From contig JAHDFM010000003.1 of the NCBI GenBank assembly GCA_020628165.1, positions 62,001-126,000 on the forward strand: a DNA stretch of 64,000 nucleotides, read 5' to 3'. Under the pieces are notes generated by a model, which saw only the letters and a program-made list of their open reading frames with translations, searched no databases and was not told the DNA's origin. The first letter of the stretch is position 1. The number at the start of each line of letters is the position of its first letter. Source of the DNA: Bdellovibrionales bacterium (lineage in GTDB: Bacteria > Bdellovibrionota > Bdellovibrionia > Bdellovibrionales > UBA1609). This document shows, in pieces, positions 4,394 through 51,289 of the stretch. The translations under genes were made by a program, and so were the position numbers.

Positions 4394-6313
4394 TTATTTT
4401 TTATTGTAATTATAAAAAATATTTGCCCCATTAACACCGGCATTATCAATAACATATTTACGAACAGTTGAGGTTTTCAACTTATTATAACTATAAGGAA
4501 TAGTTGGCTGTTTAACATTAGCACTGGGAGAAGATCCTGGCTCAAAAACAAACTTATTTTTACCACTTTGTCCTAAGAATATGTTTTGACCATCGGTGAA
4601 AACATAACCTTGAATTTTCATCGGAGTGGGTGTGTCGACATCTACAGTGTCACCAGCTAGGCCTATATTGTTGTCGTCATATACAGAAGACTCAGCAATT
4701 AAAACAGGAGTTGCCGTCCCAGTTCGATTTGGTTTACTACCATGAGATGCGACATTACCGCACAAGTCATAACCAAAACCATGTACATAATTGTTAAATC
4801 CATGGGCATAATTTCCACCTGACAGCCTGAAGTTTCTACAACTAGCACTTAAATCAGAATACGCCACAGTAACTTTTCCATGTCGTCCCGCATTTTGTCC
4901 AACAAGTTTATCTTGCGCAATTAGTAAGCCTTTTCCAGCTTGATATACTTTGTAATGAGTTACAGTTACATTAATGGCTGCTTTAGTTCCGCCGTTACCT
5001 ATTCCAAACGAGTCATCTTGTAAATTGGAACTTTCAATATGGTCGAACCAGTAGTCTTGTCCTTCAGAGACTAATATACCCGTATATGCCTTTCCACCGG
5101 GTGTTTGACGTTGAAGGGGGCCATATATAACTCTGTGAACTATAGCATTACTTTCATAAAAGCGGATCATTGTTAAATTATTTCCCACTGAAGGGTCTGG
5201 CACGATCCGAACTAATGCATCACGACCATCCCAAGTGATATTAGCAGCAGGGCGTAATGAACTTTTAATATAAATGTTTTTCCCTTCTAAGCTAGGGTCA
5301 TAAGTCACCCAGGTATTTTTTTGTGAAAGGCCAAAGCGAAGTGATCCCGGGCCAGAGTCGTTTGTATTAGTTACAACATAAAGTTTCCCATTGTATCCAG
5401 CTCCAGTGGCATTTCTTCCAAATCCAATTTTCCATGGAGACTCTAATAAACTGGCCTTGCGGTCATTACTATTTACCGTAGTAACAACACAAAATGTTAT
5501 TGTTAAGTTTTTGTTAGTCCAATCTGTCCAAGTTCCGTTTTTACATGTTCTTTGTTTTTTCATTGGAGTACAGGTTTTGTCTGTTGCTGCGATATAATAA
5601 TTTTTTGGATCAGTTTGTACGTAATCATTTGCATAACTATCACACGTTTCAGCTTGAATTGTGCAGTTAGTGATTGTTAAATTATTGTTTGTCCAATCTG
5701 TCCAAATGCCGTCTTTACATGTTCTTTGTTTTTTCATTGGAGTACAGGTTTTGTCCGTGGCTTCGATATAATAATTTTTTGGATCGGTTTGTACGTGGTC
5801 ATTTGCAAAACCGTTACAGGTTTCAGCTTGAATTGTGCAGTTAGTGATTGTTAAATTATTATTGCTCCACTCTGTCCAAGTTCCGTTTTTACATATTCTT
5901 TGTTTTTTCATTGGAGTACAAGTTTTGTCTTTAGCTGCTATGTAATAATTTTTTGGATTAGTTTGTACGTAGTCATTTGCAAAACCATCACAATACTGTG
6001 CAACAATATTGCATGTTGTAATTGTTAAATTTTTATTAGTCCACTCAGTCCATTGACCACTTTCACAAGAACGTTTTTTTTTATAAGGGGTACAATTAGC
6101 ACTTTCACTAGATGTATAATAATTTAATGGATCTATTTGTTGGGTGCCATCACTAAGGCCGTCACATTGATTGACTTTTGAACTTAAGTTTGAAGTTTCA
6201 TCTAGGTATTTAGCTGCTTGAAAGCCTTCGCCACAATTATTATACATAAATAAAATAAAAGTTAAGCTAGTAAACATTATAACTTTTTTTATAATTTGTT
6301 TCATAAATAACAT
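4394..6313 (-). CDS. Secreted lipoprotein: four Cys-rich tandem repeats plus pectate-lyase-like beta-helix
   Basis: Signal plus FMYNNCGEGF; four ~58-aa repeats (CxGFANDxVQTxPKNYYIxAxDKTCTPMKKQRxCKxGxWTxWTNxNLTI); then YVVTNTNDSGPGSLRFGLSQ...ITWDGRDALVRIVPD, typical of pectate-lyase-type beta-helices. Confidence 0.75.
   Translation of the reverse strand: MLFMKQIIKKVIMFTSLTFILFMYNNCGEGFQAAKYLDETSNLSSKVNQCDGLSDGTQQIDPLNYYTSSESANCTPYKKKRSCESGQWTEWTNKNLTITTCNIVAQYCDGFANDYVQTNPKNYYIAAKDKTCTPMKKQRICKNGTWTEWSNNNLTITNCTIQAETCNGFANDHVQTDPKNYYIEATDKTCTPMKKQRTCKDGIWTDWTNNNLTITNCTIQAETCDSYANDYVQTDPKNYYIAATDKTCTPMKKQRTCKNGTWTDWTNKNLTITFCVVTTVNSNDRKASLLESPWKIGFGRNATGAGYNGKLYVVTNTNDSGPGSLRFGLSQKNTWVTYDPSLEGKNIYIKSSLRPAANITWDGRDALVRIVPDPSVGNNLTMIRFYESNAIVHRVIYGPLQRQTPGGKAYTGILVSEGQDYWFDHIESSNLQDDSFGIGNGGTKAAINVTVTHYKVYQAGKGLLIAQDKLVGQNAGRHGKVTVAYSDLSASCRNFRLSGGNYAHGFNNYVHGFGYDLCGNVASHGSKPNRTGTATPVLIAESSVYDDNNIGLAGDTVDVDTPTPMKIQGYVFTDGQNIFLGQSGKNKFVFEPGSSPSANVKQPTIPYSYNKLKTSTVRKYVIDNAGVNGANIFYNYNKK
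5491..6170 (-). repeat. Four tandem ~174-bp repeats within the pectate-lyase-like lipoprotein
   Basis: Repeats of (t)ccaatctgtccaagt...gtacaggttttgtc...ataataattttttggat...acgta(a/g)tcatttgca at ~174-nt spacing. Confidence 0.85.
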
Positions 6314-6486
6314 CCCTACAAGAAGATCATAAGAGTCATAATCTTCTTAAATTTATTATACATAGCCTTATATGAGATTTAAATTTTATGTATGTTTTTA
6401 CAATTTTAATTTTTTTTTTGTTTCAATATGATAAGAGGTCTTGTCCCTGACCCCCATTTCGTCTAGACACCTCCAGCTATGCAGGA

Positions 6487-7071
6487 ATGTATATGTTTAT
6501 GGCTATGGCTAAATATTTTACACAGACAGGTAAAAAACCAATTTCAGCTATATACAGTGGCACGGCTAACGATTTTGTGAAAGAGGCCAAGGTGCGGCAT
6601 GACTGGTGGTTTAAAAAACTTATTTATAGACCTGATGGATCAACTGAATGGAGTCACTTTATGAATAGAAAAAGTGGGGGTACACGTTGGTATTATTCAT
6701 TACAAACAATCAATTATATTTACACTTTACATTGGAATCGTTTTTATGATTTTGCAGATGATAAAGTTATGGAAGGATTTGCTAAAGTCTATTATAATGG
6801 AGTCTCTGATTCTGATCAGGATATCTTTGACAAAGACAATACAGAAACTATGACACAATTGTCTGACGGCAGAGGCGGAGATGTTCCTCTGTATATGTCA
6901 TCAGCATCTTTAATAGGTTGTTGGGATAATTCTGGTGAAATTTTATCATTAACAGAACAAATCATCGTAAGTCCAACCAAACATAAAATTAAAGGAAACA
7001 CGTACAAACACCATAACTCTCACCATAATGCATTGTTGTCATGTGAATTAAAGCGTATCTATGACCAGTAA
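6487..7071 (+). CDS. Hypothetical protein, possibly a 5'-truncated gene fragment
   Basis: Ordinary-looking composition; open frame extends upstream to the stop at 6448 without a signal peptide. Confidence 0.35.
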   Translation: MYMFMAMAKYFTQTGKKPISAIYSGTANDFVKEAKVRHDWWFKKLIYRPDGSTEWSHFMNRKSGGTRWYYSLQTINYIYTLHWNRFYDFADDKVMEGFAKVYYNGVSDSDQDIFDKDNTETMTQLSDGRGGDVPLYMSSASLIGCWDNSGEILSLTEQIIVSPTKHKIKGNTYKHHNSHHNALLSCELKRIYDQ

Positions 7072-7515
7072 GTACTTTACTGTGACCGGCCGGGAGTTTT
7101 AGTACCAATACTGAAGTTAATATTTCATAGCAAGTATTTCCATAAACTATTTATTATCTGTAATCTCAGCATGTCTTTAGTCAATGCTACAGTTTTTTTC
7201 GAAAAGGTTTATAGCTCTCCCAATAGTAGAGGTAGTGAGGCCGTCCTTATTCTTTCAGTTTTTACATAGGGTATGTCTCTAAGGGAAATTAAATCTGGAT
7301 GAATAAATAAAAAATTTTTTAAATCTAAGTTTATTTATATTTAAAATGATTTTAATTCTATAATACTGACTTTTGTATTTTAAAGAAATCTACATAAAAC
7401 GACTTAGACAAGCTATAATTTTAATTTATTTGAAGCCTTGGTTTGCGCATTTTTTACCTTCATCCTTATTGTAAAATCTATTTTTCATTAATTCGTTCAA
7501 AGATTAAGTAAGTCT

Positions 7516-8358
7516 TTGATAATGTTGATTTTTATTTTTAAAGAGGGGGGAGTGGTGAGAAGCCATCTAGCTAGTTTTTTGATATTAGTACTGATTAATT
7601 TTTACTCACTACAGTTACACGCTAATTTTTGTGAAACAAGAGCTCAGCATTTCAAAGCTTTGAATGCTACAAATTTTTCTAAAAACTTATCTAATTTTCA
7701 AGAACAAGACATTGATTTGTTAGTGCTCGGTGAGTCTCATGGATCTCATGTGTTAGAACGACTGCCTGACGTGGTAACAACTCTTATGCCAAAAAAGTTA
7801 CAATGTGCCTTTGTCGAGTTCCCTCACACAGTATCACAAGTAGAAATTCACAATCTCATTCGTGGGAACAACACGGATTATTTTCAAACTCAAGCAAGTT
7901 TTGATTATGTTCCTTTCTTGAGCTGGTTAGTCAGTAATGATGTAAAAATCATTCCTGTCGATGACCCTATGGCTAAGCATATGCCTAGCCGATTAGAGGC
8001 ACTGTCGTGGATGAACCTACGAGATGATGTTATGTTCGAAAACATAATGAAGAATTTGCCTACGTGTGAAAAATCAGTCTTCTTAGTTGGAAAACATCAC
8101 TTAACACCAGATCTTGCAGATTATACTGAAACTCTTGGTCATCGATTAAAAAAAGAGCTCAAACAAAAAGTTGCAATTGTTGACTTAACCGTGAATAGAA
8201 ACTTTGAAGAAGAGTACTGTAGTTATACACAAAATCAATTATTTAAAGAGAAGACTTTAATTCCCACCCAGGATTTAGATGTGGCCTACTCGCTTTTTGT
8301 TTCGCACAGTTTTTGGAGTGATTTTGATTGGGCTTTTTACTTACCTAAGAATAAGTAA
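7516..8358 (+). CDS. Exported ChaN/EreA-like (TIKI superfamily-like) protein
   Basis: LLVLGESHGSH...CAFVEFP...SVFLVGKHHL resembles the ChaN/erythromycin-esterase fold. True start probably GTG near 7550, before RSHLASFLILVLINFYS. Confidence 0.5.
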   Translation: MIMLIFIFKEGGVVRSHLASFLILVLINFYSLQLHANFCETRAQHFKALNATNFSKNLSNFQEQDIDLLVLGESHGSHVLERLPDVVTTLMPKKLQCAFVEFPHTVSQVEIHNLIRGNNTDYFQTQASFDYVPFLSWLVSNDVKIIPVDDPMAKHMPSRLEALSWMNLRDDVMFENIMKNLPTCEKSVFLVGKHHLTPDLADYTETLGHRLKKELKQKVAIVDLTVNRNFEEEYCSYTQNQLFKEKTLIPTQDLDVAYSLFVSHSFWSDFDWAFYLPKNK

Positions 8359-8366
8359 AAACTTTT

Positions 8367-10352
8367 TTAATCAGGCAAAGCAAAGCTGCAGTTTTCACAG
8401 CTCACGTTTTCAAATGTCAAGCCGAGCTCACTGGCTTTAAAACCGGCTCTTTCTTGAGCATATTTTTTGACATTGATCAGTTTTGAATTTTTAAGCACAT
8501 TTCCAGTGGACTTTAAGCCCACTCTAAAAAGCGGTGCGATGGGGTCGATGACAGTGATGTTTTCCATCACATTATTTCTTGCAAGACCTTTATAATCATT
8601 GGCGTAATCATTAAACCCAAAGACGGCATATCTGATTCTTTCCATTTTAATATTTCTAAACACATTGCTTTCGGCGGCAATGGGTTGAGCCAGTTTAATA
8701 TTGGCTTTGTCTTCAGTGCCAGTAAAAAATGTGATTCCAAAATAAGCATCTTTAATAGTTATATCTTCAAAAAGATTGTTCTTTGCTCCATTGTTAGCTG
8801 AAACACCTGAGCCTCGAATGACACTGTTATTGCGATAGGTATTGTTCATAACTCCACTGTGCCTAGCGACAAAACTACCGTTGGTCATATTGACGGCTGT
8901 GTTGTTAGTGAACAAGTTGTTTTCCCCTTGCTTCTTAACGGTGAAACCATGTCCACCATGAAAGGGCTGGCCTATGCGTTCCATATAGTTGTTTTTAACA
9001 ATATTGTTATTGGCAAAAACGTTACGGCTAGGGTTTCCACTCACAATGAAGTAATAATCTGTACCATTTTTATCACCATTACCACCGCCATAGATCTTAT
9101 TGAACTCTGCCAAATGATGACTTCCATAGAGGGTTGCACTTTGGCCGCCAGCATCGATGGTTATGGAGTTTCTCAGGGTGTTGTTGGAGCCGTAAAGCCA
9201 AAATCCAGACCCGGAGTAGTCATCATCAAGGTCTCCATTTTCAGTAACAATTATATTGTCTAGGACTCCAAATTTCCCAAATAGCCCAGCGCCACCGTGA
9301 AAATTGGTGATTTGAAAGTTTTTAATATGGACATAACTGCCATCCACGCGAATAGCGGTGTTTGTGTTCTTTCTATTTTGCCCATCTAACAGGGGCATGA
9401 CTGCAGGGTTGTGCCGACTTTCATTATTAAAATTTAAATATCTTGGATTGTCTCCAGGCTTGTTTTTATATCCCTCTACAATAATAGGAAGGTCTTTAGT
9501 GCCAGACTGACTCACCCTTAAGCTTTGATTGCCGTAATCTCCGGCTTTGACGTAAAGAGTGTCTCCTGGTTTTAATTTTTTGGCGGCAAAGTTTAAAGAT
9601 TTAAATGGTTGTTGGGCATTTGTTCCTATGTTTGCGTCGGAGCCGTTAGTGGCAACATAGTAAGCGTTTTGGCGCGTCTCTTGAGTGATTGAGCAGGTGC
9701 TTGAGCAACTGTCACCATCATTTTTATTGCCATCATCACACTGTTCTGTAGGCTCTCTAACATTATTGCCACAGGTGGCGACACCGCTGGCTTGCCCGAT
9801 TTCACGATTGTCAGTAAGAGCTTGAGTAGGTTCGCGACTTGGTGGCATTGAGGAAGGTGGTGTATCAACCATTTCCATTTCATTTGTTGTAAAGTATTTT
9901 GTTTCTGACTGAAGGATGTCACCATCTTTGTTTTCAGCAACCACGGCATAGTAATATTTTGTGTCAGCTTTCAACCCATTAAGAGTCTGTCTATGAGTTT
10001 TAAAGGTGAACGAATCTTCACCCATATTTTGTGAGCTTAGTGCGTTGGTTTCACCGTATTTGATGTAAGACTTTACATAATCGTTGAGAGTCCATGTGAG
10101 ACGAACACTATCTTGGGTGGATGAGATTTTTTCAACGGCTAAAAACCGTAGTTCTTCTTTTATGACAGCCGGGTTATTGGTCTCAGGTTGTCGTTGATCA
10201 TTTTCATTGGCTGTGTTTTCGGCGTTAGCAGGGCTGTCGAGAATATCAGGTCGGTTAGAGTTTCCATCAACTGTTAAGGAGTCAAAATCAGAACAGTTTT
10301 GATAGCTCAACATAATGATAAATAAAGAAATGAGTTGTAGAAAACGTTGCAT
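8367..10352 (-). CDS. Lipoprotein with FN3, Cys-rich (DUF4215-like) and parallel beta-helix domains
   Basis: Signal plus SYQNCSDF; FN3-like segment; CGNNVREPTEQCDDGNKNDGDSCSSTC; then many N-rich beta-helix rungs starting YYVATNGSDANIGTNAQQPFKSLNFAAKKLKPGDTLYVKAGDY. Confidence 0.8.
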   Translation of the reverse strand: MQRFLQLISLFIIMLSYQNCSDFDSLTVDGNSNRPDILDSPANAENTANENDQRQPETNNPAVIKEELRFLAVEKISSTQDSVRLTWTLNDYVKSYIKYGETNALSSQNMGEDSFTFKTHRQTLNGLKADTKYYYAVVAENKDGDILQSETKYFTTNEMEMVDTPPSSMPPSREPTQALTDNREIGQASGVATCGNNVREPTEQCDDGNKNDGDSCSSTCSITQETRQNAYYVATNGSDANIGTNAQQPFKSLNFAAKKLKPGDTLYVKAGDYGNQSLRVSQSGTKDLPIIVEGYKNKPGDNPRYLNFNNESRHNPAVMPLLDGQNRKNTNTAIRVDGSYVHIKNFQITNFHGGAGLFGKFGVLDNIIVTENGDLDDDYSGSGFWLYGSNNTLRNSITIDAGGQSATLYGSHHLAEFNKIYGGGNGDKNGTDYYFIVSGNPSRNVFANNNIVKNNYMERIGQPFHGGHGFTVKKQGENNLFTNNTAVNMTNGSFVARHSGVMNNTYRNNSVIRGSGVSANNGAKNNLFEDITIKDAYFGITFFTGTEDKANIKLAQPIAAESNVFRNIKMERIRYAVFGFNDYANDYKGLARNNVMENITVIDPIAPLFRVGLKSTGNVLKNSKLINVKKYAQERAGFKASELGLTFENVSCENCSFALPD

Positions 10353-13961: not shown

Positions 13962-14109
13962 GTGCCCCCAGCTTATACAAAGAAGTGCAACAACTGGACC
14001 AAAAAAAAATAGTTTATACACAATACAAGTTATATAAACAGACAAACTTTTAAGTCTCGTAAACTATATCTACAGATAATAGAGAAAGTGTTTCATTATG
14101 AAATACGAT

Positions 14110-15138
14110 TTAATTGCGCGGTTTTAAGGTGATCACAGATTTGTATTCATCAATGTGATACCAGCTTTTGCTGTCTTCGCATTTATTTTTACTTTCACAA
14201 GTGAAAGAACTTATATTTCCAACAGTGATTTTACGCTCGTGGATATAGATTCTATTTTTATCTTTAGCCACATATTCATTAAGCATTTCAAAGCTGTAGT
14301 AATCTGCATTGTAAATGGGTTTGTCTTTGTAGAAGATCTTTTGATTGTCTTTAAAAAAGAGTCCTTGTAGGTGATAAAAGCTTCCCAAATCTAAATTGTT
14401 AATCTTTTCTCCGAAAATATAGATATTTTCATTGTCTCGATAAAATTGTGAGTCCTTGACCTGTTCAAAGCTTCTTATGTCGGCACCTTCGATAGCTTTG
14501 AAGTTATAATAGACTCCTCTAGAGTCTATGGAGTAATCATTTCCTAAACGTTTAAAGTTCTCTGGATCGTTAGAAACTATGTCACAGCCAATAAAGACAT
14601 GATCTTGGTCACGGTAAAAATTGTTTTGTGGGTCAAAATCAAAAGTATTCGGGTCAGCATCAGATAAGATTTGAGATTTACAAAAGACATGGCTTTGGTC
14701 TTCTGAAATGTCGTCTTTAATAATTGCAAATGTATTTCGATCAGCATTATTAATGATTTGGTCTTGATAAAACACAAGCTGTGAATCCGACCCATACTCA
14801 CCATCTTTTAATACATAGAAGTCAACGGCACTGGCCTCTGCAAGTTTATTTTCTTTGAGGTAAACGTGTCCTTTGTAAACATAGTAGTTATTGTAATCTG
14901 TTTTGATCTGATTGAATTCAAGAATGTTATAATCAATGATGGGTTCTTCTTCAATAATTGGGCGAGGAGGGGGTTCATCTATAGGTTCTTCTGAGATAAT
15001 GGGTTCGTTAATATCTTCGGGAATGGCGAAAGAGCTAAGATCGAAAGATTTTTGTTGAAAGCCATCAAAACAATTAGTGAATGCTAAAAATAAGACAGAG
15101 AGAAGGCACAATACAAAAAGTTTTTTAAACAATGCCAT
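14110..15138 (-). CDS. DKNYY-family-like repeat lipoprotein
   Basis: Signal plus AFTNCFDGF; repeated Y-D-x-x-x-V-Y/F...I-x-x-A-D-x-x-(T/S)F units. Confidence 0.7.
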   Translation of the reverse strand: MALFKKLFVLCLLSVLFLAFTNCFDGFQQKSFDLSSFAIPEDINEPIISEEPIDEPPPRPIIEEEPIIDYNILEFNQIKTDYNNYYVYKGHVYLKENKLAEASAVDFYVLKDGEYGSDSQLVFYQDQIINNADRNTFAIIKDDISEDQSHVFCKSQILSDADPNTFDFDPQNNFYRDQDHVFIGCDIVSNDPENFKRLGNDYSIDSRGVYYNFKAIEGADIRSFEQVKDSQFYRDNENIYIFGEKINNLDLGSFYHLQGLFFKDNQKIFYKDKPIYNADYYSFEMLNEYVAKDKNRIYIHERKITVGNISSFTCESKNKCEDSKSWYHIDEYKSVITLKPRN

Positions 15139-15908: not shown

Positions 15909-18900
15909 TTAATTAAAATTGATGTCGATTTCATCAATAGAACACTGATTAGTCTGTGTAGGGTCAGACTTTAGATAACCAATGACCTCTAGTTCTCCAG
16001 CACCAAATTGTGTGGCAAATTGTTTGATGTGAGTCGTTACTTCTGAAGCAAGGTTTCTATGAGACTCGTCACTGACTAAGACCCATGATGCTCCATCGTG
16101 ATAATAACTGTTTGGGTTTCGGTGAAGTCTGAAACTAGCACAAGAGTCTGCACTGATACTGGCATCACTTAGAGTTGTAAAGTTGATTGGCGATTTTGGT
16201 TTTATTTCAACGTATTCACTGGCGTACTTGATAGCGCCACTTGGGTTCAGGCTCACTGCTGTGAGCTCTGGCAAACAAGGCTCACCTCCACAGGCTGTGT
16301 TGTCATCAGCTTCCATGTAGACACGGTATTGTGCATACCTGTTTGCTGAAGGAGTTATAAACTGTGTGTAATCAATGTTTAAAAATTCAGGACCTGTTGG
16401 CTTAGAGCTTCCAGCAATTGTGATCTCATCTTCAACACAAACACCAGGGTCACTATCTGTCGCGTTCAATGAGCAATTAAAGGTCACATCTGTTGAGCTC
16501 CTGCTATAAAGTTCACTGTAATAAGTTGTTCCGTCACCACCAGGGCCGATGAATTCAGCTTTATGGATGTCATCTGTATCTAGGGTATTGAGCGTTCCAT
16601 CTCCATCACAATCTGTTTCGCTGCCAGCTGGAGCTAAATTATAACTCTTGCAGTTGCATGAAGAGTCTACGCAGCTCTTTACTTGCAACTTCACTCGATT
16701 GGCTCCTCTGCGGTAGAGTTGTCTGATTTCATCTTCAGATAAAAATCGAGACCAGATGGCGATTTCATCAGCCTCGCCATTAAAAAAGTGGCTTTGTCCT
16801 GAACTACGGTCAAGGGCACCTATAGTGAACCTATCTTGTGAGCTCAATATATTTAACCAACTACCATCGTTTGTGCCTGTAAAAACAGATATAGGCTCTT
16901 CTTTGCCGTTGATATAAAACTTATATTCAGATCCGTTTGAGGATGTGACTATATGATACCATTGGTTTTTTTTGAGTGGTGTTGTTCCATGAATGACATT
17001 AAAAATTATTGAACCTGCGTTGCGGAAAAATACTGAAATCACTCCTGTAGTATCAATCCGTAAGAGTGTACCTATCGGGGTTGAGGAAGAGCTACTTCCA
17101 GATGCAACCACATGTTGGATGTTTGTTAAGTCATTAAACTTAAACCAACCAGACAAAGTGCCTTCAGTTGATAGTGTGATTGTGTTTTGAAAAGTAATAT
17201 GTTGTGAGACTCCATCAAATGACACTCCTCTGTTTAACTTCCCAGATGAGTTTGTGGTAGCACCATTTACAGCTTGACCGTCATTGCCAACTCCTGAAAG
17301 ATCTATCACTTCATCCACACTACCTGTCCATATGGGCTCATTGAGTGGCCAGTAGCCGATAAGTCCATCACTTAGATCTTCAATCACAGATGAGTAGTGT
17401 GCTATGCTTTCATTGTCAGGGTTTCCATTATTATTAAAATCACCAACAAGTTCTTTACCAAACGGCAAACTTGTAGACCACGATAAGTCTGGCCAAGTTG
17501 CAGTTGTATTCCCTAAATCAATCACTTCTGAATCGAAGTGACTGGCATATTTTTGTTTTTGGCGGTTATAAATTACACTTACATCAGTTGGAGATAGTGG
17601 CTTATTCCAAATGGCAACGTCATCAATTTCTCCATTAAAATCAGATATACTTGGAGTGTTGATTTGTCGCACTCCAAGGGCCGCATTAAAAGTAGGTAAA
17701 CTTATATTTCCTGCAGTAGTAACAGGGTAATGTTTTCCATCAATATATAGCTTAGTAATTCCAGCTTCCCTTACCACCATAAGGTGATACCATCTATTTA
17801 ATTTATATTCTGGACCCCAAAGTATATTAGAAGTTCCGTCTCCATGATAAACAAATATTCTATTTAATCCGCCTGTATATCGAACTCCAATTTGATAGCC
17901 AGTGTTTATTGATCCATCATAGCGACCAAAGATAGATTTATCTGACTGAGCTTTTGAATAAAACCAACTGGATATTGTAAAATTATTAGTGAGATCTAGT
18001 GAGGCATCATTGCCAAGATCAACATAATCAGTGGTGCCATCAAATGTTCCAGCAAACCCACTTACCTGTGCGTTGGAACTAAAGCTTGCTTCGTTATAAG
18101 GTGAGCCATGATTTCCATTTCCAGAAGAGTCTTGCCAGTTCTCATTCATTTGCCAGTAGCCAACTATATTGTCCCAATGTGGAGTCCAGGATGGGTGCAA
18201 ATGATTTTCACTGCTAAAACTTTGTAATTGTGCATTGTATATAGCAACGCCTTGTTCATTGCTCAATGCTGTATCCCAAAAAGCTAACTCATCAAAAGCA
18301 CCATCCCAGTGGCGTAATGCAGCTGAATGCCAGCTAGATAAATAACTTGCGCCAATCGAAGTATCAAGGATCGTTCCACTCGGAGTGTGGAACTCCTCCA
18401 ATGGCAGTGGCTGACCGTTCACTAGAATATTTGGATTGTTTGAGTTAGATGTCGAATCATAAGAGACAAAAACGTGATACCATTCGTCTAAATTAAATGT
18501 AAAGTTATCTGAGGTCCAATGTCCTTTATTACCATCATGTCGGACACGTAAATTAATCTCTTTTGATGAGCTTGAAACCCATAGCGCCATCTTATCATCA
18601 CCTAAAGAGAAGATTCTAGGGAAGTCATTAGCGTAAGAGTCTAACTTTACCCAGGCAGAAAAAGAAACTTGAGTGAATGGATCTGAAAGAATACTTAATG
18701 CCTCATCAGTTCCATTTAACTTGAGACTGTATCCTTTTGAGCTCGCAACAAAATTTGTGCTGATTCCTGAGCCAGTATAATTACCATTGTTAGCTATTAC
18801 ATCTTTAAAGCTTCCATCAAATTTCCAGTAGTATTTCATATCACTAGCCTGTGATGGTAGAATTTTTCGAATATCTAAATTTTGGTTTAGACTTAAATTG

Positions 18901-19184
18901 TTCGAGCTATTTAGGTGAGAGCCTGCATGGTTTCCACTACTAAAATTATTGCCAGATTGTTCTAGGTCTAACGGCTTTAGAAATACTTTTCCATTTTTAA
19001 ATTGTATTAGGTTGTCATCAAACTCGTAGTCGTTACTTGAATTAAACTGCCATGTGCTATCGAAAGCGGATCCTAAATTCAACTCCGTTTTATCATAGCT
19101 ACATGAAGTGTTGACTAAGATTAAAACTGTTACTAATGCACAGTAATTTCTAAAAAAAAATTTTTTAAAATCAAAGTAAAACAT
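15909..19184 (-). CDS. Lipoprotein with three LamG/concanavalin-A-like domains
   Basis: Three repeats of GLxYW(P/K)...FDGxxDYVxLGND...SxWFxxx...WYHxxVxx...YIDGK...G.xDExAIWxxxLSxxE; signal ending LVNTSC. Confidence 0.85.
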   Translation of the reverse strand: MFYFDFKKFFFRNYCALVTVLILVNTSCSYDKTELNLGSAFDSTWQFNSSNDYEFDDNLIQFKNGKVFLKPLDLEQSGNNFSSGNHAGSHLNSSNNLSLNQNLDIRKILPSQASDMKYYWKFDGSFKDVIANNGNYTGSGISTNFVASSKGYSLKLNGTDEALSILSDPFTQVSFSAWVKLDSYANDFPRIFSLGDDKMALWVSSSSKEINLRVRHDGNKGHWTSDNFTFNLDEWYHVFVSYDSTSNSNNPNILVNGQPLPLEEFHTPSGTILDTSIGASYLSSWHSAALRHWDGAFDELAFWDTALSNEQGVAIYNAQLQSFSSENHLHPSWTPHWDNIVGYWQMNENWQDSSGNGNHGSPYNEASFSSNAQVSGFAGTFDGTTDYVDLGNDASLDLTNNFTISSWFYSKAQSDKSIFGRYDGSINTGYQIGVRYTGGLNRIFVYHGDGTSNILWGPEYKLNRWYHLMVVREAGITKLYIDGKHYPVTTAGNISLPTFNAALGVRQINTPSISDFNGEIDDVAIWNKPLSPTDVSVIYNRQKQKYASHFDSEVIDLGNTTATWPDLSWSTSLPFGKELVGDFNNNGNPDNESIAHYSSVIEDLSDGLIGYWPLNEPIWTGSVDEVIDLSGVGNDGQAVNGATTNSSGKLNRGVSFDGVSQHITFQNTITLSTEGTLSGWFKFNDLTNIQHVVASGSSSSSTPIGTLLRIDTTGVISVFFRNAGSIIFNVIHGTTPLKKNQWYHIVTSSNGSEYKFYINGKEEPISVFTGTNDGSWLNILSSQDRFTIGALDRSSGQSHFFNGEADEIAIWSRFLSEDEIRQLYRRGANRVKLQVKSCVDSSCNCKSYNLAPAGSETDCDGDGTLNTLDTDDIHKAEFIGPGGDGTTYYSELYSRSSTDVTFNCSLNATDSDPGVCVEDEITIAGSSKPTGPEFLNIDYTQFITPSANRYAQYRVYMEADDNTACGGEPCLPELTAVSLNPSGAIKYASEYVEIKPKSPINFTTLSDASISADSCASFRLHRNPNSYYHDGASWVLVSDESHRNLASEVTTHIKQFATQFGAGELEVIGYLKSDPTQTNQCSIDEIDINFN

Positions 19185-19564: not shown

Positions 19565-21241
19565 TTGAATATGATGAGACTTGTATTTCAATTTTTGATG
19601 CTTATGTTATTGGTTTTGTTTTACCAAAACTGTGGTAATTTTGAAGCTAATATTTTACAACCTGCAGACTCATCTCTTGATTCAGGAACAAGTGCTAATG
19701 ATCAACTCCCGATTGGAACCAATAATCCTGTCGATAATCAAAATAGTGGCAATACTTTCAATTCAAAACTCATTTTAAATTGTGATGTCCCTAGTAACAT
19801 TGCAAAGACAGAGCTGTCTCGTATGACTCGCAAAGAGATCGCTTTGAGTTTGATAGATATTCTTGGGGTGCGCACATTTGATGATATGAACATGCTGCCT
19901 ACAGACTCTTACAACGACAAAGGCTTTGCCAACGAAAGTTCAATCCAGCTTTTGTTTGAAAGAGATGCCAGCAAGTACTTTGATTTTTTTGAAAAAGCGA
20001 TTGATACAGCTATTCAAGAAAAAAGTAGCAAAGTTTTTACTTGCGATATTAATAGCACAAGCTGTTTGCAAAAAATCATTGACGACATTTCTTATTTAGC
20101 GCATAGAGGGGCTTCAACGGTTGCAAATAAAATTAAAGAGAATCTCAGCCAGTACAGTACAGCTTCTGATAAATTAAAGTACAGTTTGATGAGTGTGTTT
20201 CTTGCGCCTGATTTTTTGTTTCACCAAAGCACTTTAGAAAATGTCACAAACAAGAACTTAACTCAGATGCAACTTGCCGACCGCTTGGCAAGTTTGTTGT
20301 GGTTTTCAAACCCTGACAAAGTGTTATTAGATGCTGCTAAAAATAATGAATTGTCTACAGACCAACAGCTGTTTGCTCAGATCGACCGTATGATAGCAGA
20401 TAGCAAGTTCGAACGATTTATTTACAACTTCATAGATCAGTGGTTGTCGGTGGAACAAGGGAAAGTTGTTTTAAGCAGCAATCCAAAAGCAAATGGTGAT
20501 GTGATCAAAGGTTTAGAGGATGAAACCAAAGCTCTTCTTCGTCATGTTATTGACGAAAACCTACCTATCAATCAGTTGATCACTGCAGATTATACTTTTT
20601 TAAATACTTTGACAGCAAACTATTACGGACAGTCTTCAGTGAGTTCTCAAGACTTACAAAAAGTTAGCATAGACAGCTCAAGGCGAGGAGTTTTTTCCCA
20701 TGCTTCAGTGATAGCGGGCATGAGTGGCCTCGGTGAAACCAACCCAACACACCGTGGGTATTGGTTTTTAAAGCGAGCTTTTTGCTTGCCCCCAGATCCC
20801 ATTCCAGGAAACTTGATGGCCGCAGTTGATAGCGTTAAGCTTGATAGCACTCTTCCTATGAAAGAACGCTTAGCTGTTCTTTCAGAAACAAAGCTTTGTG
20901 GTGACTGCCACGTACAAATGGATCCCATCGGCATTGCCTTTGAAAGCTTTGATGCCTTTGGCCAGTACCGCACTCACAATGGAGTGCATCCTGTCGATAC
21001 CAGCGGTCGCAACATCGCTGGAGTCGAGTTCAATGACTTCCCTCAGTTGGTGAGTCAGTTGCAACAAAGTGATCTCTATAATTTTGAGAGTTGTTTTTCT
21101 CATCATATGATTTCTCTGGCGAGAGCTAAAATTTCTGACAAAAACTTATTATGTGAAACAAATAAATTGGTCACCCAGAAAAATATGACCTTTAAAGAGA
21201 TCATTAAAAACATAGTGTCGAGCGAGTATTTTAAAAAGTAG
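19565..21241 (+). CDS. DUF1592/DUF1588-like lipoprotein with a CxxCH motif
   Basis: Signal plus FYQNCGNF; TELSRMTRKEIALSLIDILG; RRGVFSHASVIAGMSGLGETNPTHRGYWFLKRAFCLPP; CGDCHVQMDPIGIAFESFDAFGQYR. Confidence 0.8.
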   Translation: MNMMRLVFQFLMLMLLVLFYQNCGNFEANILQPADSSLDSGTSANDQLPIGTNNPVDNQNSGNTFNSKLILNCDVPSNIAKTELSRMTRKEIALSLIDILGVRTFDDMNMLPTDSYNDKGFANESSIQLLFERDASKYFDFFEKAIDTAIQEKSSKVFTCDINSTSCLQKIIDDISYLAHRGASTVANKIKENLSQYSTASDKLKYSLMSVFLAPDFLFHQSTLENVTNKNLTQMQLADRLASLLWFSNPDKVLLDAAKNNELSTDQQLFAQIDRMIADSKFERFIYNFIDQWLSVEQGKVVLSSNPKANGDVIKGLEDETKALLRHVIDENLPINQLITADYTFLNTLTANYYGQSSVSSQDLQKVSIDSSRRGVFSHASVIAGMSGLGETNPTHRGYWFLKRAFCLPPDPIPGNLMAAVDSVKLDSTLPMKERLAVLSETKLCGDCHVQMDPIGIAFESFDAFGQYRTHNGVHPVDTSGRNIAGVEFNDFPQLVSQLQQSDLYNFESCFSHHMISLARAKISDKNLLCETNKLVTQKNMTFKEIIKNIVSSEYFKK

Positions 21242-21248
21242 GAACAGC

Positions 21249-36106: not shown

Positions 36107-36982
36107 TTGAGGTCGTTTGTTAAGTTTTCAGTTTTAATATGTGTGACGCTTTTGTTGGCAAGTTGTCAGCAAGCAACAAAAGTGAGTGATGTCTCCAATT
36201 CACGCTATGAATTTTTAATAAAAAAGCTTGATGAGCCCATTTTGCTGGGTGAAAAGACGGTGATCTTCGATAGTCGCCCCAAGTTTCAGTATTTAATGTA
36301 CTCTTTGCCGGGCGCTATCCATTTAACGTGGGAGCAGCTTCTTTCCGATCCGAGCATCGACAATTCTGTAGTTAAAGGCGATAAAGCTTTTTACTCGGCT
36401 CGTCGTTTAGCTCGTTTAGGGGTAAATCCAAAGAGCGAAGTCATCATTGTTGGGTCAGAAGAACGCGGTCAAGCTAGAGCCGGTCGGTTGGCTTGGTCAT
36501 TGCTCACGATGGGATTTAACAATATACAAGTGACTTCCATCGAGAGCGTTAAAAAGTCATTAACGCCATTTAATGAACGCAAACATAAATCCATACCTAT
36601 TTGGAAACCCACTGATCGCACCATCCTTGAAATTTCAACGGATGAGTTCATCAATGCCATACGCAATTCAGAGGAAAATTTATTAGTCTTAGATGTGCGC
36701 TCAGACAAAGAAATGCAGAAAGTCAATTTGAAGGGGTTAAAAAAGAATTTAGCGAAATTCAAAAGCGTTTATATTCCTTGGGTTCATTTTTACAATGAAA
36801 AGGGTCGCCCCAACAAAAAGTTTTTACGTCAGCTGAATGCAAATGGCGTGACAACAGATCAAAATATCATTGTGATTAGCAATGAAGGCATTCGTTCGGC
36901 CTCTGTCACATATGCCCTATTAGCTCTAGGTTTTCCTAGCGTTAGAAATTTATCGGCCGGTTATAAGTCGTTGTACAAATAG
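36107..36982 (+). CDS. Lipoprotein with two rhodanese-like domains lacking the catalytic Cys
   Basis: Lipobox LLLASC; two rhodanese-like domains; active-site loops read VGSEERGQARAGR and ISNEGIRSA. Confidence 0.7.
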   Translation: MRSFVKFSVLICVTLLLASCQQATKVSDVSNSRYEFLIKKLDEPILLGEKTVIFDSRPKFQYLMYSLPGAIHLTWEQLLSDPSIDNSVVKGDKAFYSARRLARLGVNPKSEVIIVGSEERGQARAGRLAWSLLTMGFNNIQVTSIESVKKSLTPFNERKHKSIPIWKPTDRTILEISTDEFINAIRNSEENLLVLDVRSDKEMQKVNLKGLKKNLAKFKSVYIPWVHFYNEKGRPNKKFLRQLNANGVTTDQNIIVISNEGIRSASVTYALLALGFPSVRNLSAGYKSLYK

Positions 36983-37001: not shown

Positions 37002-37658
37002 ATGCGTATTCTGGGTTTGTTAATTCTTTGTTTAGCGTTATCAAGTTGCACTAAGAAAAAAGTCCCTCAAGTTGAAGACACCAATAAGAACAAAAAAGTG
37101 ATGGACTTCAGTTCACAAGAAAACTGCATGTATGACATTGACCGCGAGTCAGTAAAACTCACTTGGACCGGCTATAAGTTCACTAGTAAAGAGCCTGTGA
37201 GCGGTACTTTTGAGGATATCATGTGGACCATTCAGCCGGGTAAAAACGCAAATGCATTGATGGCCAATTTGAAATTTCAAATTAAAACTAAATCCATTGA
37301 TTCAGGTATGCGAATTCGCGACAAGCGACTTTACAAATACTTATTTCAAAAAATGAAAAATCCTGAGTTCATCGAGGGCTACGGCATCAGTTTTGATGAA
37401 ACTAAAAACCAAGCTCTCATTGAGCTGAATATGAATGAAACAAGAACTCCCGCTGTATTTACAACCAAAATATTTGACGATTGGACCTTTGAGTTAGTCG
37501 GTGTTATCGATATGTTGAAGCATTATAAGATGAATGAAGCTGTAGAAAGTATATCTAAGAAGTGTGAAAAGTTGCACACAGGCGAAGACGGCGTTGCCAA
37601 AACTTGGACCGAAGTAGGCCTCAAACTCACAGGCAAAATGCTCAAAAATTGTAATTAG
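37002..37658 (+). CDS. YceI-like lipoprotein
   Basis: Lipobox ALSSC; YDIDRESVKLTWTGYKFTSKEPVSGTF lipocalin-like YceI start. Confidence 0.65.
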   Translation: MRILGLLILCLALSSCTKKKVPQVEDTNKNKKVMDFSSQENCMYDIDRESVKLTWTGYKFTSKEPVSGTFEDIMWTIQPGKNANALMANLKFQIKTKSIDSGMRIRDKRLYKYLFQKMKNPEFIEGYGISFDETKNQALIELNMNETRTPAVFTTKIFDDWTFELVGVIDMLKHYKMNEAVESISKKCEKLHTGEDGVAKTWTEVGLKLTGKMLKNCN

Positions 37659-37717: not shown

Positions 37718-37725
37718 ATTAGTGT

Positions 37726-38898
37726 TTAATTTTCACATTCAATTGTTGCTTTATAATTTTTAGCTTTAATGGTTTTATCTGTAATTTTGATAATACTTTT
37801 TATATGTTGAAACGATTCTGTTTCGACTGATATGCCGTTCAGTTTTAGCGACGTTACATTTAAACACAAGCCGGGAATTTTAAAAATAATATCATTCGAT
37901 TTTCCAACTTGTTCAATCATGCTCTGAATGGCTTGAGTCCAATTCGAGTTAACAATATTAGTGGCTATGCCTCCAGTGCTTTTTATAAAGTCTAAGTAAT
38001 GAAAGCCGTGAAGACCTTCATTTGTCATCTCTTTAACTTCATCGAAAGTGTTTTTAAGGTCCCCAACGACATTGAGGTTCTTTAGAAGTGGATTGTTTTT
38101 TTCTGGCAGAGGAACGATGCCATTAAACTTTATGCCTGAGATGTTTTCATTATTACTAAGAAGTGATTGTTTTAACTCATTTACAGTTAATGGTGTTGTG
38201 TATGCGTTGTTTCTTCCGTAATAATTTGCGCCTGGATCGTGTGTATCTGAAACAAATATAATATTTACTAAAGCGCCATCTCTGAATAATTTTTGTTCTT
38301 CAGAGTTGTATTTTTTTATTAGTTGGTGCAAAGACACAGTCCCTGCCTCAACTCCAGTTGGAAATAGTGTAATTTGTGAATTGGCAAGTAAGCAGTTAAC
38401 ACCGTAAGAGTTTTTAGATGTCGGTTGAAACCACTCACTACATCCTGGTTGAGTGAAGTTGCTTTTGTACTTTATTTCAGTTTCGGAGTTATAATAAAAG
38501 TCCATAATAGTTGAATGACTCACCAGCTTCATAAAGCCGGGAAAATCACTGACTTGAGTTCTAGGAACGAATTGGGTATTAAAGTCAATCTCGTTATTTT
38601 TAACTTGAGCTGGAGCCATGTTGGTGATTGCCATCCTTGTGTTTTTTGGATAGTTAGCTTTGCTCGCACTGTCAAAACCATCCATAATTTTACTAAGAAC
38701 CCGTTTCATAGAAATGGATTCATCAAGAACAAATAATATGTCAACATCTTCAAAGCTTTTCTCAGGGCTGTAATTAACAGTGTATGAAGGGTTTAGGTTT
38801 TTTTTTGAGTTATTATCTAATGATTCATCGAATTTTACCTGTGAACAATTTTGAAATAAAATGATCGTCAATATTAATATAAAAATTGAGTTAAACAT
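37726..38898 (-). CDS. von Willebrand factor A-like lipoprotein
   Basis: Signal plus LFQNCSQV; VDILFVLDESISM (DxSxS MIDAS). Confidence 0.8.
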   Translation of the reverse strand: MFNSIFILILTIILFQNCSQVKFDESLDNNSKKNLNPSYTVNYSPEKSFEDVDILFVLDESISMKRVLSKIMDGFDSASKANYPKNTRMAITNMAPAQVKNNEIDFNTQFVPRTQVSDFPGFMKLVSHSTIMDFYYNSETEIKYKSNFTQPGCSEWFQPTSKNSYGVNCLLANSQITLFPTGVEAGTVSLHQLIKKYNSEEQKLFRDGALVNIIFVSDTHDPGANYYGRNNAYTTPLTVNELKQSLLSNNENISGIKFNGIVPLPEKNNPLLKNLNVVGDLKNTFDEVKEMTNEGLHGFHYLDFIKSTGGIATNIVNSNWTQAIQSMIEQVGKSNDIIFKIPGLCLNVTSLKLNGISVETESFQHIKSIIKITDKTIKAKNYKATIECEN

Positions 38899-43956: not shown

Positions 43957-43965
43957 TAAAAGTCA

Positions 43966-46728: not shown

Positions 46729-48405
46729 ATGAATTTTATGGGGAAATGTTTTGCCTTAGCTGGGCTGATTCTAATTCTGTCTTTGTACAACAATTGTGCG
46801 CCTTCTTTTCAGTCAATGAATGATCTTGGTAGCACAAAAGACACCTTGATTGATCCTGGTAACAACAATCAAGGAAACCCTGGTGGATCACTTGGAGGAG
46901 CACCTATACCTCCGCCACGCGTGTCTTCCAAAACTATGGTCATTAATAAACACAAATTCAACCCAGGTGGTGATCAGTTTAAATTCAGTTGTGAAGGTTC
47001 AGAATTAGAGATTCCACAACTTCAACCAGGCAAGCTGACAAAAGTTGAATTGCAAAACTCTCTTAAAAATGTTTTGGGAGTTGAGGGAATTAATTTAAGT
47101 ATTTATCCAGATCAATCAGACACCAACAAATTTAGGGCTTCTAATCTATATATCACTGAAAATAGTTTCTTTTCATCTATGTCAACCATTGCTAAAGATG
47201 TGGCCAATCAGTTTATTAAGAGCTTAGAGTCTAATAGCAATTCAAGTTGGAATTGTGATTTTAAAACTGAGTGCATGAACTCGTTAAAACAGAACCTACC
47301 AAAATATATCTGGAGAAAAAAACTGAGCCCCGCTGAATTGGCAACATTGAATAAAATGTTTCAATACAATCAAGGAGACTCTATAGAGGTCGCTAAAGAA
47401 AAATTATATGATTTTGTCTTTATGCTTGTTAATTCTCCTCAGTTTTTCATTAAAAAAAATCTATCGACAAATTTTAATACGACAAAGCGCTTAGCAACGA
47501 TGCAGATATTGAATCGTTTAAGTTTCTTTCTAGCATCATCTGCGCCAACAAAAGAGCTAATCGACAGTTACAGTGATGAAGCTGAGTTAAGTACAGATCA
47601 AATCAGGTCCATTGCGCAACAAATTTTATCTGATAATGACACCAAAATGAAATTTATTAAGCAGTTTTTACTTTCATACTTAACATTGAATAATACCATT
47701 CAAAACCCTAATAAATTTTACGGGACACCGATAAAAGATATTGTTAGCAATGATATAGAAAATCTTTATCAGTTGTTTGCTAGTAACAAGCCTTTGTCCG
47801 AGTTAATTTCCAATGTTGAGGCGGGAATACTAACTAACAAAACATTCTCTTTCACTACTTTTGGAACAACGAAGGACTCATCACCCATAAAGCGTGGAAC
47901 GACGATTCTTTCAAATATTTTATGTGAAGAGTTGCCATCATTGCCTCCGGCTACATTTATGCAAATTAGAGAGGTGGCATCGACAATACCGGAGCACTTC
48001 AACAACATGCAGGTCATGGAATATCACCGGAGCATTGGTAGCTGTGCCTCTTGTCACAATGTTATTGATCCTCCTGCGATTGGTTTAGAAGTTTTGGGAC
48101 CATCAGGTGAGTTAAGGGTCAACTACCCCAATGGTGACAAAATTGAAGCTGTGGGCTCTTTAGGCGACAACCCATTTAATGATCTTCCCAGTTATTTAAA
48201 TGTGATGTCTAATTCAATAGATTTTAAAAGTTGTTTTGCCAACCACTTAAATTCAGCGGTGAACTTCTCAAGTCAATACAAGTACAACTCGTGTTTGGTG
48301 AACTCATTGTTTGGTGAAAATGAGGACGTTGGCATGATGGACTTAGTTTATAATTTTGTAACTTCGAATAATTTTTTATGGGCTAAAAAGCCAACGTACA
48401 ATTGA
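46729..48405 (+). CDS. DUF1592/DUF1588-like lipoprotein with a CxxCH motif (second paralogue)
   Basis: Signal plus LYNNCAPSF; KLTKVELQNSLKNVLG; KRGTTILSNILCEELPSLPP; SCASCHNVIDPPAIGLEVLGPSGELR. Confidence 0.78.
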   Translation: MNFMGKCFALAGLILILSLYNNCAPSFQSMNDLGSTKDTLIDPGNNNQGNPGGSLGGAPIPPPRVSSKTMVINKHKFNPGGDQFKFSCEGSELEIPQLQPGKLTKVELQNSLKNVLGVEGINLSIYPDQSDTNKFRASNLYITENSFFSSMSTIAKDVANQFIKSLESNSNSSWNCDFKTECMNSLKQNLPKYIWRKKLSPAELATLNKMFQYNQGDSIEVAKEKLYDFVFMLVNSPQFFIKKNLSTNFNTTKRLATMQILNRLSFFLASSAPTKELIDSYSDEAELSTDQIRSIAQQILSDNDTKMKFIKQFLLSYLTLNNTIQNPNKFYGTPIKDIVSNDIENLYQLFASNKPLSELISNVEAGILTNKTFSFTTFGTTKDSSPIKRGTTILSNILCEELPSLPPATFMQIREVASTIPEHFNNMQVMEYHRSIGSCASCHNVIDPPAIGLEVLGPSGELRVNYPNGDKIEAVGSLGDNPFNDLPSYLNVMSNSIDFKSCFANHLNSAVNFSSQYKYNSCLVNSLFGENEDVGMMDLVYNFVTSNNFLWAKKPTYN

Positions 48406-48415
48406 TTGAGGAATA

Positions 48416-49873
48416 ATGGGTATGAATCATTTAAAAAAACCATCACGTCGAGAGTTTTTAGCAAATATGTCTTACTCCCTTGGGTTGATTTCTGCAGGTC
48501 ACATATTTAGTCAAAAAATATTTGCGCAAAGTGTGAACCCCATTCAACGAGTGATACATGTTTATTATCCGCATGGCATTTTATCAAAAGGCGATCTGAT
48601 GCGGGGTAATTTCGTGATAAATAACCAAAGCCCTTTAAAGTCATTAGTTCCTATAGCTGGTGATTGTCGCTTTATCAGAAATGTGAGCAAAAAATATAAG
48701 GCTCTAAGGCAAAAGGGCAGTCACTCAGTTTGTCAATCATCAGCTCTTACTGGCTGTGCCACTAAAAAAACACATGGAGCCGGCAGTGATCTTGGTAACA
48801 ATACGGGAGCTTTTGGTGGAAAAAGTGTCGACATAGTTGCTGGTGAATTCTTACAAAAAAAATACAAAACCAAAGAGCCTTATCTGGTTTTAGGAATTTC
48901 AGATCAACACGGTGATGGCAACTCTGGTTCAAGTCCTTATTTGTGGGAAACGGTGAGTTGGACGGGAAATAAAAAGCCGTTGTTGCCGACTCTTAGGCCG
49001 AGCAAGGTGTTCGCTGATTTACAAAAACACAAACAAAGTTTAGTGTCTTGTGGCGTTAGCGGAGTGAATCCTGATGAGATTAAAAATAAGATTAAGTTAT
49101 TAGATAAAGATATTGGTAAGTACAATTTAATCCGTGAAAATTTAAAAAATTATTACAGCACCAATTTAATGCCAAAAGTAGAGATGGAAAAACTCGAACA
49201 GCAAATTGTGCGAGACATAGCTAGTAAAAATCAGCAGAAAGTTGATTTTCAAGCGACTCTAGATGGAACGGCAACTCAAAATAACAACCAAGACGCTTGC
49301 GTTGATTTAAAAAATCCAGGCAATCAGTTTGACCGAGTCCCAGGCCTATCTACTTTTATTAATGGCGATAGATCACAAGATCGTGGGTTTAACGCTAAGG
49401 CCGCAGCTCATATGGATTTAATGATGTATGCTTTGCAAAGCAATTACACTCGCAGCATCACTTTAAATTTGGGCGGCCGTATTTACAAAGATGCTCACGG
49501 AGCCGGCCACTTGTCCCGCGACGTTGGTTCAAGAGATCATTGTTTTAACTTGTCATTTGCCTATGGGGTTATGATTGCTAATGTTGTTAAAACATTAGTA
49601 GACAAATTGAAAGCAGCAAATCTTTATGATTCGACTTTGATTGTTTTTACGGGTGAGTTTGGCAACCAAAAAACAGACGCCCACTATAATTTACATTCAC
49701 CTTGGATGGTGATTAATTCTGGAAAGAATGGTGAGTACAACAATGGAGACGTGCATATTGGTGACATCAATGTCAGCACGATGAATCGTATTGGCGACAC
49801 ATCTGTGAAAAACTTTGGCAGTTCTGACAGTGCTTTGAACAGAGAAGGACGATTCAATCCAAATATTTTTTAA
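48416..49873 (+). CDS. DUF1552-like protein (second paralogue)
   Basis: SRREFLANMSYSLGLISAGHIFSQKIFA leader; YHPHGILS-like start; DSTLIVFTGEFGNQKTDAHYNLHSPWMVI. Confidence 0.75.
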   Translation: MGMNHLKKPSRREFLANMSYSLGLISAGHIFSQKIFAQSVNPIQRVIHVYYPHGILSKGDLMRGNFVINNQSPLKSLVPIAGDCRFIRNVSKKYKALRQKGSHSVCQSSALTGCATKKTHGAGSDLGNNTGAFGGKSVDIVAGEFLQKKYKTKEPYLVLGISDQHGDGNSGSSPYLWETVSWTGNKKPLLPTLRPSKVFADLQKHKQSLVSCGVSGVNPDEIKNKIKLLDKDIGKYNLIRENLKNYYSTNLMPKVEMEKLEQQIVRDIASKNQQKVDFQATLDGTATQNNNQDACVDLKNPGNQFDRVPGLSTFINGDRSQDRGFNAKAAAHMDLMMYALQSNYTRSITLNLGGRIYKDAHGAGHLSRDVGSRDHCFNLSFAYGVMIANVVKTLVDKLKAANLYDSTLIVFTGEFGNQKTDAHYNLHSPWMVINSGKNGEYNNGDVHIGDINVSTMNRIGDTSVKNFGSSDSALNREGRFNPNIF

Positions 49874-49888
49874 ATTTAAGGTTTATTT

Positions 49889-51289
49889 ATGAAATTATTT
49901 TTTCATATTTTTATTTTTTCCACCTTAATTTTGTTCTATCAAAATTGTGGAGAGGGTTTTGTCAGTCAGACGAATGGATCGTTTCAAGTCTCAGATTTTG
50001 AGCCAGATTTAGCAGGGTCTCCAGGTGATTCAACGGACACAATAAATTCAAATCCACAGTCAGATATTGAGTCGACACAAGATCAAAACAACGATGATCA
50101 ATTGACAGAAAACAATCCAAATGATGGAGAAGCTAATAACAATGACCCAATGAATGAAACTGATGAAGAGGTGGGTCCTGAATTCACTTTGATCACACAA
50201 GTGAAAGTCGTGTCGAAAACTCACACTCGTTTAGTGATTGAATGGAGCACTGGAGTTAATACAACAGGCTATATCAACTATGGACTGAACAAAGAGCTCG
50301 GCTCTGTGCAAAAAAAAGAAACTTCATTTAAATATAACATTCACCAACAAGAGTTAATCGATTTAACACCAGACACACCCTATCATGTACAGGTGATTTC
50401 TAAATCTGAAGATGGCAAAGAGTTTCGTTCTAAGGTGATGATCATAAAAACCAATGAAGCCCCCAAAATAGATTCAAATGGATCCGCAAACTACTTAAAC
50501 TTTGCTGACTTTAAAGAATCACGTAAACTAAAAAACTTTCAAGTTGGAGATTGGCGCAAAGATGGTTATGAGGAACCAAGGCGCGACATTGCAAATTGGG
50601 AAAAGGTGTTTATTTTACCGAATGGTCATGATGGTGCGAGTGCAAAGATGATGCTTGACCCAAGCATAAAAGAAGCTTGGGCCACATATAAAATGCAGTT
50701 GGGAAAAAACTGGACACCGGCAGGCTCTGTGAAGTTACCTGGTTTTGCCTCACATATTAATGAAGGTAGATACAGTTATTCTGGTGGGAATGGTGGTGGC
50801 TGGGCTGGACTGTGCCGGTCGTGGTCGGCTCGCTCATTTTTGGCTGCGATAAAGCCGGGTGTCAGCTGGTCTGGAAAGTTATCTATGGAAGTGTATCATA
50901 GAGATAGTAATAACTATGCAGGTGGGGCAACACCTAAAGATCATCCTTGTAAACTGAGTAACTTCAACCCAAAGTCGTACACAAAGTATCAATTCGGACA
51001 GCCGTTGAGCAGTAAAGGTTTTATAAGAGATAAAAAGTGGCACACTGTCACTCATCATATTCGCCTAAACACCATAGGCCAATCCGATGGACTCATTGAG
51101 CTGTATTTGGATGGAAAATTAGCAGGTAAAATGACCAATTTAAATTTTACCGACAATCCAAAGTACCACAACATTGCCTTTTGGTTCATTGTCTATCATG
51201 GTGGTGGCCCCGACACGACAGGAACCTTTCACGACATTTACTTTGCAGATTTCAACTGGAACTCCGGCCCCATTAACTTAACCCGATAA
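49889..51289 (+). CDS. Lipoprotein with FN3-like domain and polysaccharide-lyase-14-like jelly-roll
   Basis: Signal plus FYQNCGEGF; FN3-like segment; KLPGFASHINEGRYSYSGGNGGGWAGLCRSWSARSF...DGLIELYLDGKLAGKMTNLNF. Confidence 0.6.
   Translation: MKLFFHIFIFSTLILFYQNCGEGFVSQTNGSFQVSDFEPDLAGSPGDSTDTINSNPQSDIESTQDQNNDDQLTENNPNDGEANNNDPMNETDEEVGPEFTLITQVKVVSKTHTRLVIEWSTGVNTTGYINYGLNKELGSVQKKETSFKYNIHQQELIDLTPDTPYHVQVISKSEDGKEFRSKVMIIKTNEAPKIDSNGSANYLNFADFKESRKLKNFQVGDWRKDGYEEPRRDIANWEKVFILPNGHDGASAKMMLDPSIKEAWATYKMQLGKNWTPAGSVKLPGFASHINEGRYSYSGGNGGGWAGLCRSWSARSFLAAIKPGVSWSGKLSMEVYHRDSNNYAGGATPKDHPCKLSNFNPKSYTKYQFGQPLSSKGFIRDKKWHTVTHHIRLNTIGQSDGLIELYLDGKLAGKMTNLNFTDNPKYHNIAFWFIVYHGGGPDTTGTFHDIYFADFNWNSGPINLTR

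Follow-up and report, generated by a model that had tools for sequence, protein, structure and literature searches.

The window analysed here is a 64,000-nucleotide stretch of the genome of a Bdellovibrionales bacterium (GenBank assembly GCA_020628165.1, contig JAHDFM010000003.1, positions 62,001 to 126,000), and it encodes seven predicted lipoproteins whose leaders place asparagine immediately before the putatively lipidated cysteine (Table 1). All seven leaders were confirmed at the coordinates given for them in a first-pass annotation made from the sequence alone, as was the pattern that it described around the cysteine: position -1 is Asn in 7/7 leaders, with Tyr or Phe at -3 and Gln, Asn or Thr at -2 in each, and a Phe follows at +4 to +6 (counting Cys as +1) in 7/7. 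The canonical lipobox is given as [LV]-[ASTVI]-[GAS]-C, with Gly, Ala or Ser required at -1, in PMC8689077, and all seven leaders fall outside this small-residue rule. The Asn-Cys leaders resemble canonical ones in their mostly positive start, hydrophobic core, invariant Cys mostly 18-34 residues in and the presence of encoded Lgt and LspA, but differ in having Asn at -1, Gln, Asn or Thr at -2, an aromatic residue at -3 and a mature-side F-[E/D/Q], the sole overlap with the consensus being an occasional Thr at -2. Ordinary lipoboxes coexist with them in the window, as had also been noted for LLLASC at 36107, ALSSC at 37002 and STGC in the open reading frame (ORF) 12468-14045; a further one is NTSC at 19184.

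Table 1. Asn-Cys leaders, comparison lipoproteins and neighbouring DUF1552 proteins in the window (a solidus within a leader marks the predicted cleavage site; aa, amino acids)
Feature	Position	Strand	Protein or remark
Leader FMYNN/CGEGFQ	6218..6313	-	4394-6313, 639 aa, without confident family
Leader LSYQN/CSDFDS	10278..10352	-	8367-10352, 661 aa, purple-acid-phosphatase N-terminal/fn3-like domain, DUF4215/myxo disulfide repeat
Leader LAFTN/CFDGFQ	15055..15138	-	14110-15138, 342 aa, DKNYY repeats
Leader LFYQN/CGNFEA	19565..19648	+	19565-21241, 558 aa, DUF1592/1588/1587/1585, CxxCH
Leader ILFQN/CSQVKFD	38827..38898	-	37726-38898, 390 aa, MIDAS/VWA protein
Leader LSLYNN/CAPSFQ	46729..46812	+	46729-48405, 558 aa, DUF1592/1588
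Leader LFYQN/CGEGFV	49889..49963	+	49889-51289, 466 aa, fn3-like domain and polysaccharide lyase 14
Ordinary lipobox LLLAS/C	36107..36166	+	in-window comparison
Ordinary lipobox ALSS/C	37002..37049	+	in-window comparison
Laminin_G_3 protein	15909..19184	-	1091 aa, ordinary S/C lipobox (CSYDKTELNLGSA)
DUF1552 protein	21249-22637		3' of DUF1592/1588 protein
DUF1552 protein	48416-49873		3' of DUF1592/1588 protein

Frequencies beyond the window were obtained from 48% of the 3.19 Mb genome (1.54 Mb in 32 stretches or contigs, with 1287 called ORFs), in which lipoprotein-like N-termini were selected for a hydrophobic core, a basic n-region and a suitably placed Cys, with positions -1 and -2 and the mature side left unused except that charged residues between the core and Cys were excluded. 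This filter missed the window protein at 37726-38898, which has no Lys or Arg in its n-region, so the sample counts are lower bounds. Among the 173 N-termini selected, the residue at -1 was Ser in 63, Asn in 37, Ala in 27 and Gly in 16, and because Asn precedes only 7.3% of internal cysteines, its presence in 37/173 is a clear excess. Gln, Asn or Thr occupies -2 in 34/37 of the Asn leaders, 33 of these 34 having Phe, Tyr or Trp at -3 and one having Met, and the motif common to the 34 is [FYWM]-[QNT]-N-C-[GAS]-x(1-4)-F-[E/D/Q]. Compared with leaders carrying Ala, Gly or Ser before Cys (A/G/S-Cys), the Asn leaders are enriched in F/Y/W/M at -3 (34/37 versus 15/106, p=9e-18), in Q/N/T at -2 (34/37 versus 19/106, p=6e-16), in [FY] followed by one of EDQAVTNI within +4 to +9 (27/37 versus 19/106, p=2e-9) and in mature-side [FY][ED] (17/37 versus 7/106, p=4e-7), these p-values for -2, -3 and Phe being descriptive given that the motif was chosen from the same sample. 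Within the 45 N-terminal residues of proteins the pattern [FYW][QNT]NC was counted 32 times, whereas the 392,015 residues beyond them contain it only 6 times (a rate ratio of 36; p=4e-23), and at motif sites preceded by a hydrophobic stretch the Cys lies at residues 18-34 in 28/30 cases. Run on this 48% of the genome, the proteome scan that the first-pass annotation had proposed as a check places the motif far above chance at N-termini. The lipoprotein-like N-termini of this genome split into two classes, of which the Asn-Cys leaders form a distinct one.

The proteins that carry the motif are diverse. BLAST comparison of the 34 motif proteins with leaders removed resolved 22 unrelated groups, the largest being a nine-member DUF1592/1588 cytochrome-like family, found as nine related proteins in the sampled half of the genome with Asn-Cys leaders in 9/9. 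When 34 Asn-Cys proteins (33 of the motif set together with the window protein at 37726-38898) were aligned over their full length, the N and C of the motif were the sole invariant columns. Among the domains of Asn-class proteins are MIDAS adhesin relatives, CglD-like, MtsD-like, OmpL47-type, TSP3, astacin, polysaccharide lyase 14, Ig and fn3, whereas the A/G/S class includes LemA, SBP_bac_5, LysM, TPR and transglycosylase D, as well as a Laminin_G_3 group. As judged by inspection, the former tend to point outward and the latter are often periplasmic or housekeeping proteins, a contrast that is a tendency and not a rule. A confinement of the Asn class to large modular proteins, as initially claimed, was not borne out: the 34 motif proteins span 162-1084 residues, and some large modular proteins use ordinary lipoboxes, such as the product of 15909-19184 and its Laminin_G_3 group, a five-member sampled group with ordinary lipoboxes in 5/5. 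Asn-Cys proteins do differ in median length, at 467 residues for all 37 against 310 for A/G/S-Cys proteins (p=0.013).

To follow the motif across genomes, a 26-residue leader profile was used. At least 59 matches were found in the genome of origin; two congeners had 49 and 56, and other genomes of the class mostly had 5-40, with best E-values of 1e-4 to 1e-9 in most genera of Bdellovibrionia; the window leader at 6218..6313 scores E=9.3e-9 (G000:C12:68215-68283) against a profile whose alignment includes that leader. The motif persists over many GTDB families of the class. In the sister class within the same phylum (that of genome G183), no more than five weak matches per genome were found with the leader profile among 47 genomes, the best at E 0.0017; these matches are noise, and the motif is absent from the sister class as sampled. 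Within Bdellovibrionia, ten small genomes of family f1 gave 0-3 matches each, and a 328 kb sample of one of these (G096) held no genuine motif among 22 lipoprotein-like N-termini. A 400 kb sample of a Bdellovibrio genome (G007, genus g30) showed Asn at -1 in 3/39 lipoprotein-like N-termini, and in two of these three the -3/-2 motif is complete. A stricter DNA-level pattern searched across the phylum matched 25/144 genomes in the class and 3/225 outside it, too sparse for correlation, and its reversed control matched one genome inside and two outside. A contig search with a Bdellovibrio VWA protein returned one Bdellovibrionales metagenome-assembled genome bearing two FQNC leaders. The motif is broadly distributed in the class Bdellovibrionia and, on this comparison within the phylum, appears lineage-specific.

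The window protein at 37726-38898 allows comparison with a characterised family. NCBIfam NF052240 (MIDASAdhsBdello) describes Bdellovibrio MIDAS adhesins with a curated cut-off of 700 bits, and the window protein scores E=8.6e-8 and 31.7 bits, far under that cut-off; on this score it is a distant relative and not an equivalog of the family member Bd0875, equivalogs of which were found in genus g30, in the same order as the window genome. A search of the PDB with the VWA protein gave no match. Bd0875 had been expected to carry Asn-Cys, wrongly, as its leader has Gly-Cys: the equivalog leaders read LYVG/CSPVKF or FYVG/CSPV[KN]F. Across the class, most members of the family begin their mature part with C-S-x-V-x-F or a close form, many have an aromatic residue at -3, and the residue at -1 is mostly Gly, Ala or Ser, the Cys-x4-Phe spacing being conserved over several GTDB families. 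The window relative, FQN/CSQVKF, shares this mature end but has Asn where the Bd0875 orthologs have Gly (or Ala or Ser). According to PMC11003981, Bd0875-mCherry was imaged at the predator-prey interface, and both lipidation at Cys22 and a lipid anchor on the predator surface were deduced, the former from the lipobox. Since this surface-located protein has Gly-Cys, Asn at -1 is not required for surface display, and since a surface-type relative keeps the mature Phe in its absence, the two halves of the motif are separable.

The window genome encodes two Lgt and two LspA, the enzymes called for by a type II signal, and this paired complement is usual in the class. The second LspA (L004, G000:C53:187406-187825) is a 311-residue frame in which the catalytic-type motifs GNVHDR and FNVAD precede a C-terminal extension that contains additional hydrophobic stretches. 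An alignment of LspA sequences revealed nothing assignable to the -1 subsite. Comparison of the lgt and lspA paralogues, a further check proposed at the outset, showed that neither paralogue pattern cleanly tracks the motif.

Taken together, these observations point, with moderate confidence, to a second, lineage-specific lipoprotein signal in which an extended lipobox, [FY]-[QNT]-N-/-C-[GAS]-x(1-4)-F-[E/D/Q], is handled by the ordinary Lgt/LspA pathway and the mature Phe acts as a tag for envelope sorting, probably to the surface. The invariant Cys would be diacylated by ordinary Lgt, LspA would cleave after an Asn tolerated in the motif context, and envelope transport machinery would recognise the mature end so exposed, C-[G/A/S]-x-x-F-E, and carry the Asn-Cys proteins to the outer membrane and most likely to its surface. 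In the simplest model the half before Cys would be a variant lipobox and the half after it a tag, separable from one another, and of the two the Phe on the mature side may be the likelier sorting element. The earlier suggestion of a dedicated signal is partly supported by the distinct class and by a bipartite motif on unrelated, largely extracellular-type proteins, but not by the candidate Lgt, LspA and LolA machinery, which offers no clean match. Several points weigh against the favoured reading: ordinary lipoboxes occur on some large extracellular-type proteins; Bd0875 uses Gly-Cys, and its location is no proof that Asn-Cys proteins share it; a single LolA was found in the genome, and nothing that would read the mature motif was identified; and, with the motif drawn from the sampled genome itself, independent support comes from the cross-genome searches.

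A simpler possibility is that Asn-Cys is a lipobox variant which the enzymes tolerate and which has no role in sorting, LspA accepting Asn at -1 and the motif reflecting only local constraints of Lgt and LspA on leaders with a polar c-region. The normal Lgt and LspA encoded in the genome, the exchange of Asn with Gly, Ala or Ser at -1 among MIDAS relatives and the few Asn-Cys leaders kept in the Bdellovibrio sample all favour it, but mere tolerance should not bring along the -3 and -2 preferences and a Phe 3-5 residues past the cleavage site, and this Phe sits in the tether, outside the lipobox; tolerance alone is judged rather unlikely, if a serious contender. At the other extreme lies a fully dedicated surface route, in which the [FY][QNT]N half would direct specialised processing, by paralogous Lgt/LspA or asparagine-specific cleavage, and the C-[GAS]-x-F-E half would address an undiscovered outer-membrane translocation machine displaying adhesins and hydrolases on the predator surface; this bolder scheme appears unlikely.

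Slightly more doubtful again is a dedicated processing branch on its own, in which a paralogous enzyme would handle Asn-Cys, either the short Lgt, whose gene neighbours lspA and ileS, or the long LspA, which carries an additional C-terminal domain. The paired enzymes usual in the class are consistent with it, as is a trend among f1 genomes of up to 2.2 Mb, where those in which the long Lgt alone was seen have 0-3 matches and those with two Lgt have 4-11, a comparison for which the Lgt type of G106 was assumed and in which the low-match genomes are reduced, may be one clade and are confounded with the rise of matches per Mb with genome size (rho 0.71). Against it, G099, in which the long Lgt alone was seen and no Lgt lies at the ileS-lspA locus, has 32 matches, G098, G109 and G128, in which the short Lgt alone was seen, keep 39, 18 and 11, and LspA-matching frames of about 280-315 residues occur as extra copies in the motif-free sister class too. 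Finally, one ancestral leader might have been copied by recombination onto many proteins and remained undiverged, as the origin of 9/34 motif proteins in one DUF1592/1588 expansion might suggest. However, the motif proteins fall into unrelated groups, the motif persists across many families of the class, and n-regions, hydrophobic cores and synonymous codons vary from copy to copy, which argues that the leader was not copied; leader shuffling is largely excluded and very improbable.

The favoured reading, a sorting signal with a mature Phe tag, has a parallel in the lipoprotein export signal (LES) of Bacteroidetes, K-(D/E)2 or Q-A-(D/E)2, reported in PMC5080379 to be experimentally sufficient for surface transport. 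Both are short motifs right after the lipidated Cys, common to unrelated surface-type lipoproteins of one lineage, but the LES is charged and its sufficiency was proven by experiment, whereas the present motif is Phe-centred, extends upstream of Cys and is known from sequence alone; the mature ends found here, C-[GAS]-x(1-4)-F-[E/D/Q], do not match the LES pattern. No description of an Asn-Cys lipobox was found in the passages, titles and abstracts searched, and novelty is provisional to that extent; a full-text search for FQNC with lipoprotein returned papers that, by title and abstract, concern peptide hormones, copeptin, vasopressin and related topics. Except in a few lineages, little is understood of how Gram-negative bacteria deliver lipoproteins to their outer surface, and a class-wide motif, carried by tens of proteins in many of these genomes, offers a way to test it in bacteria that rely on surface adhesins and secreted enzymes for predation. 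For annotation, rules built on the [GAS] consensus at -1, as stated in PMC8689077, would miss about one-fifth of the likely lipoproteins sampled because Asn leaders fall outside it.

Two regions of the window (19565-22637 and 46729-49873) repeat the same arrangement, a DUF1592/1588 protein with CxxCH followed by a DUF1552 protein. A 148-residue ORF at 4009-4455 overlaps the 3' end of the gene at 4394-6313, and its C-terminal part appears, as an impression from sequence, to resemble a serine recombinase fragment. Positions 1-8000 of the window have a G+C content of 30-35%, against about 40% over most of its length.

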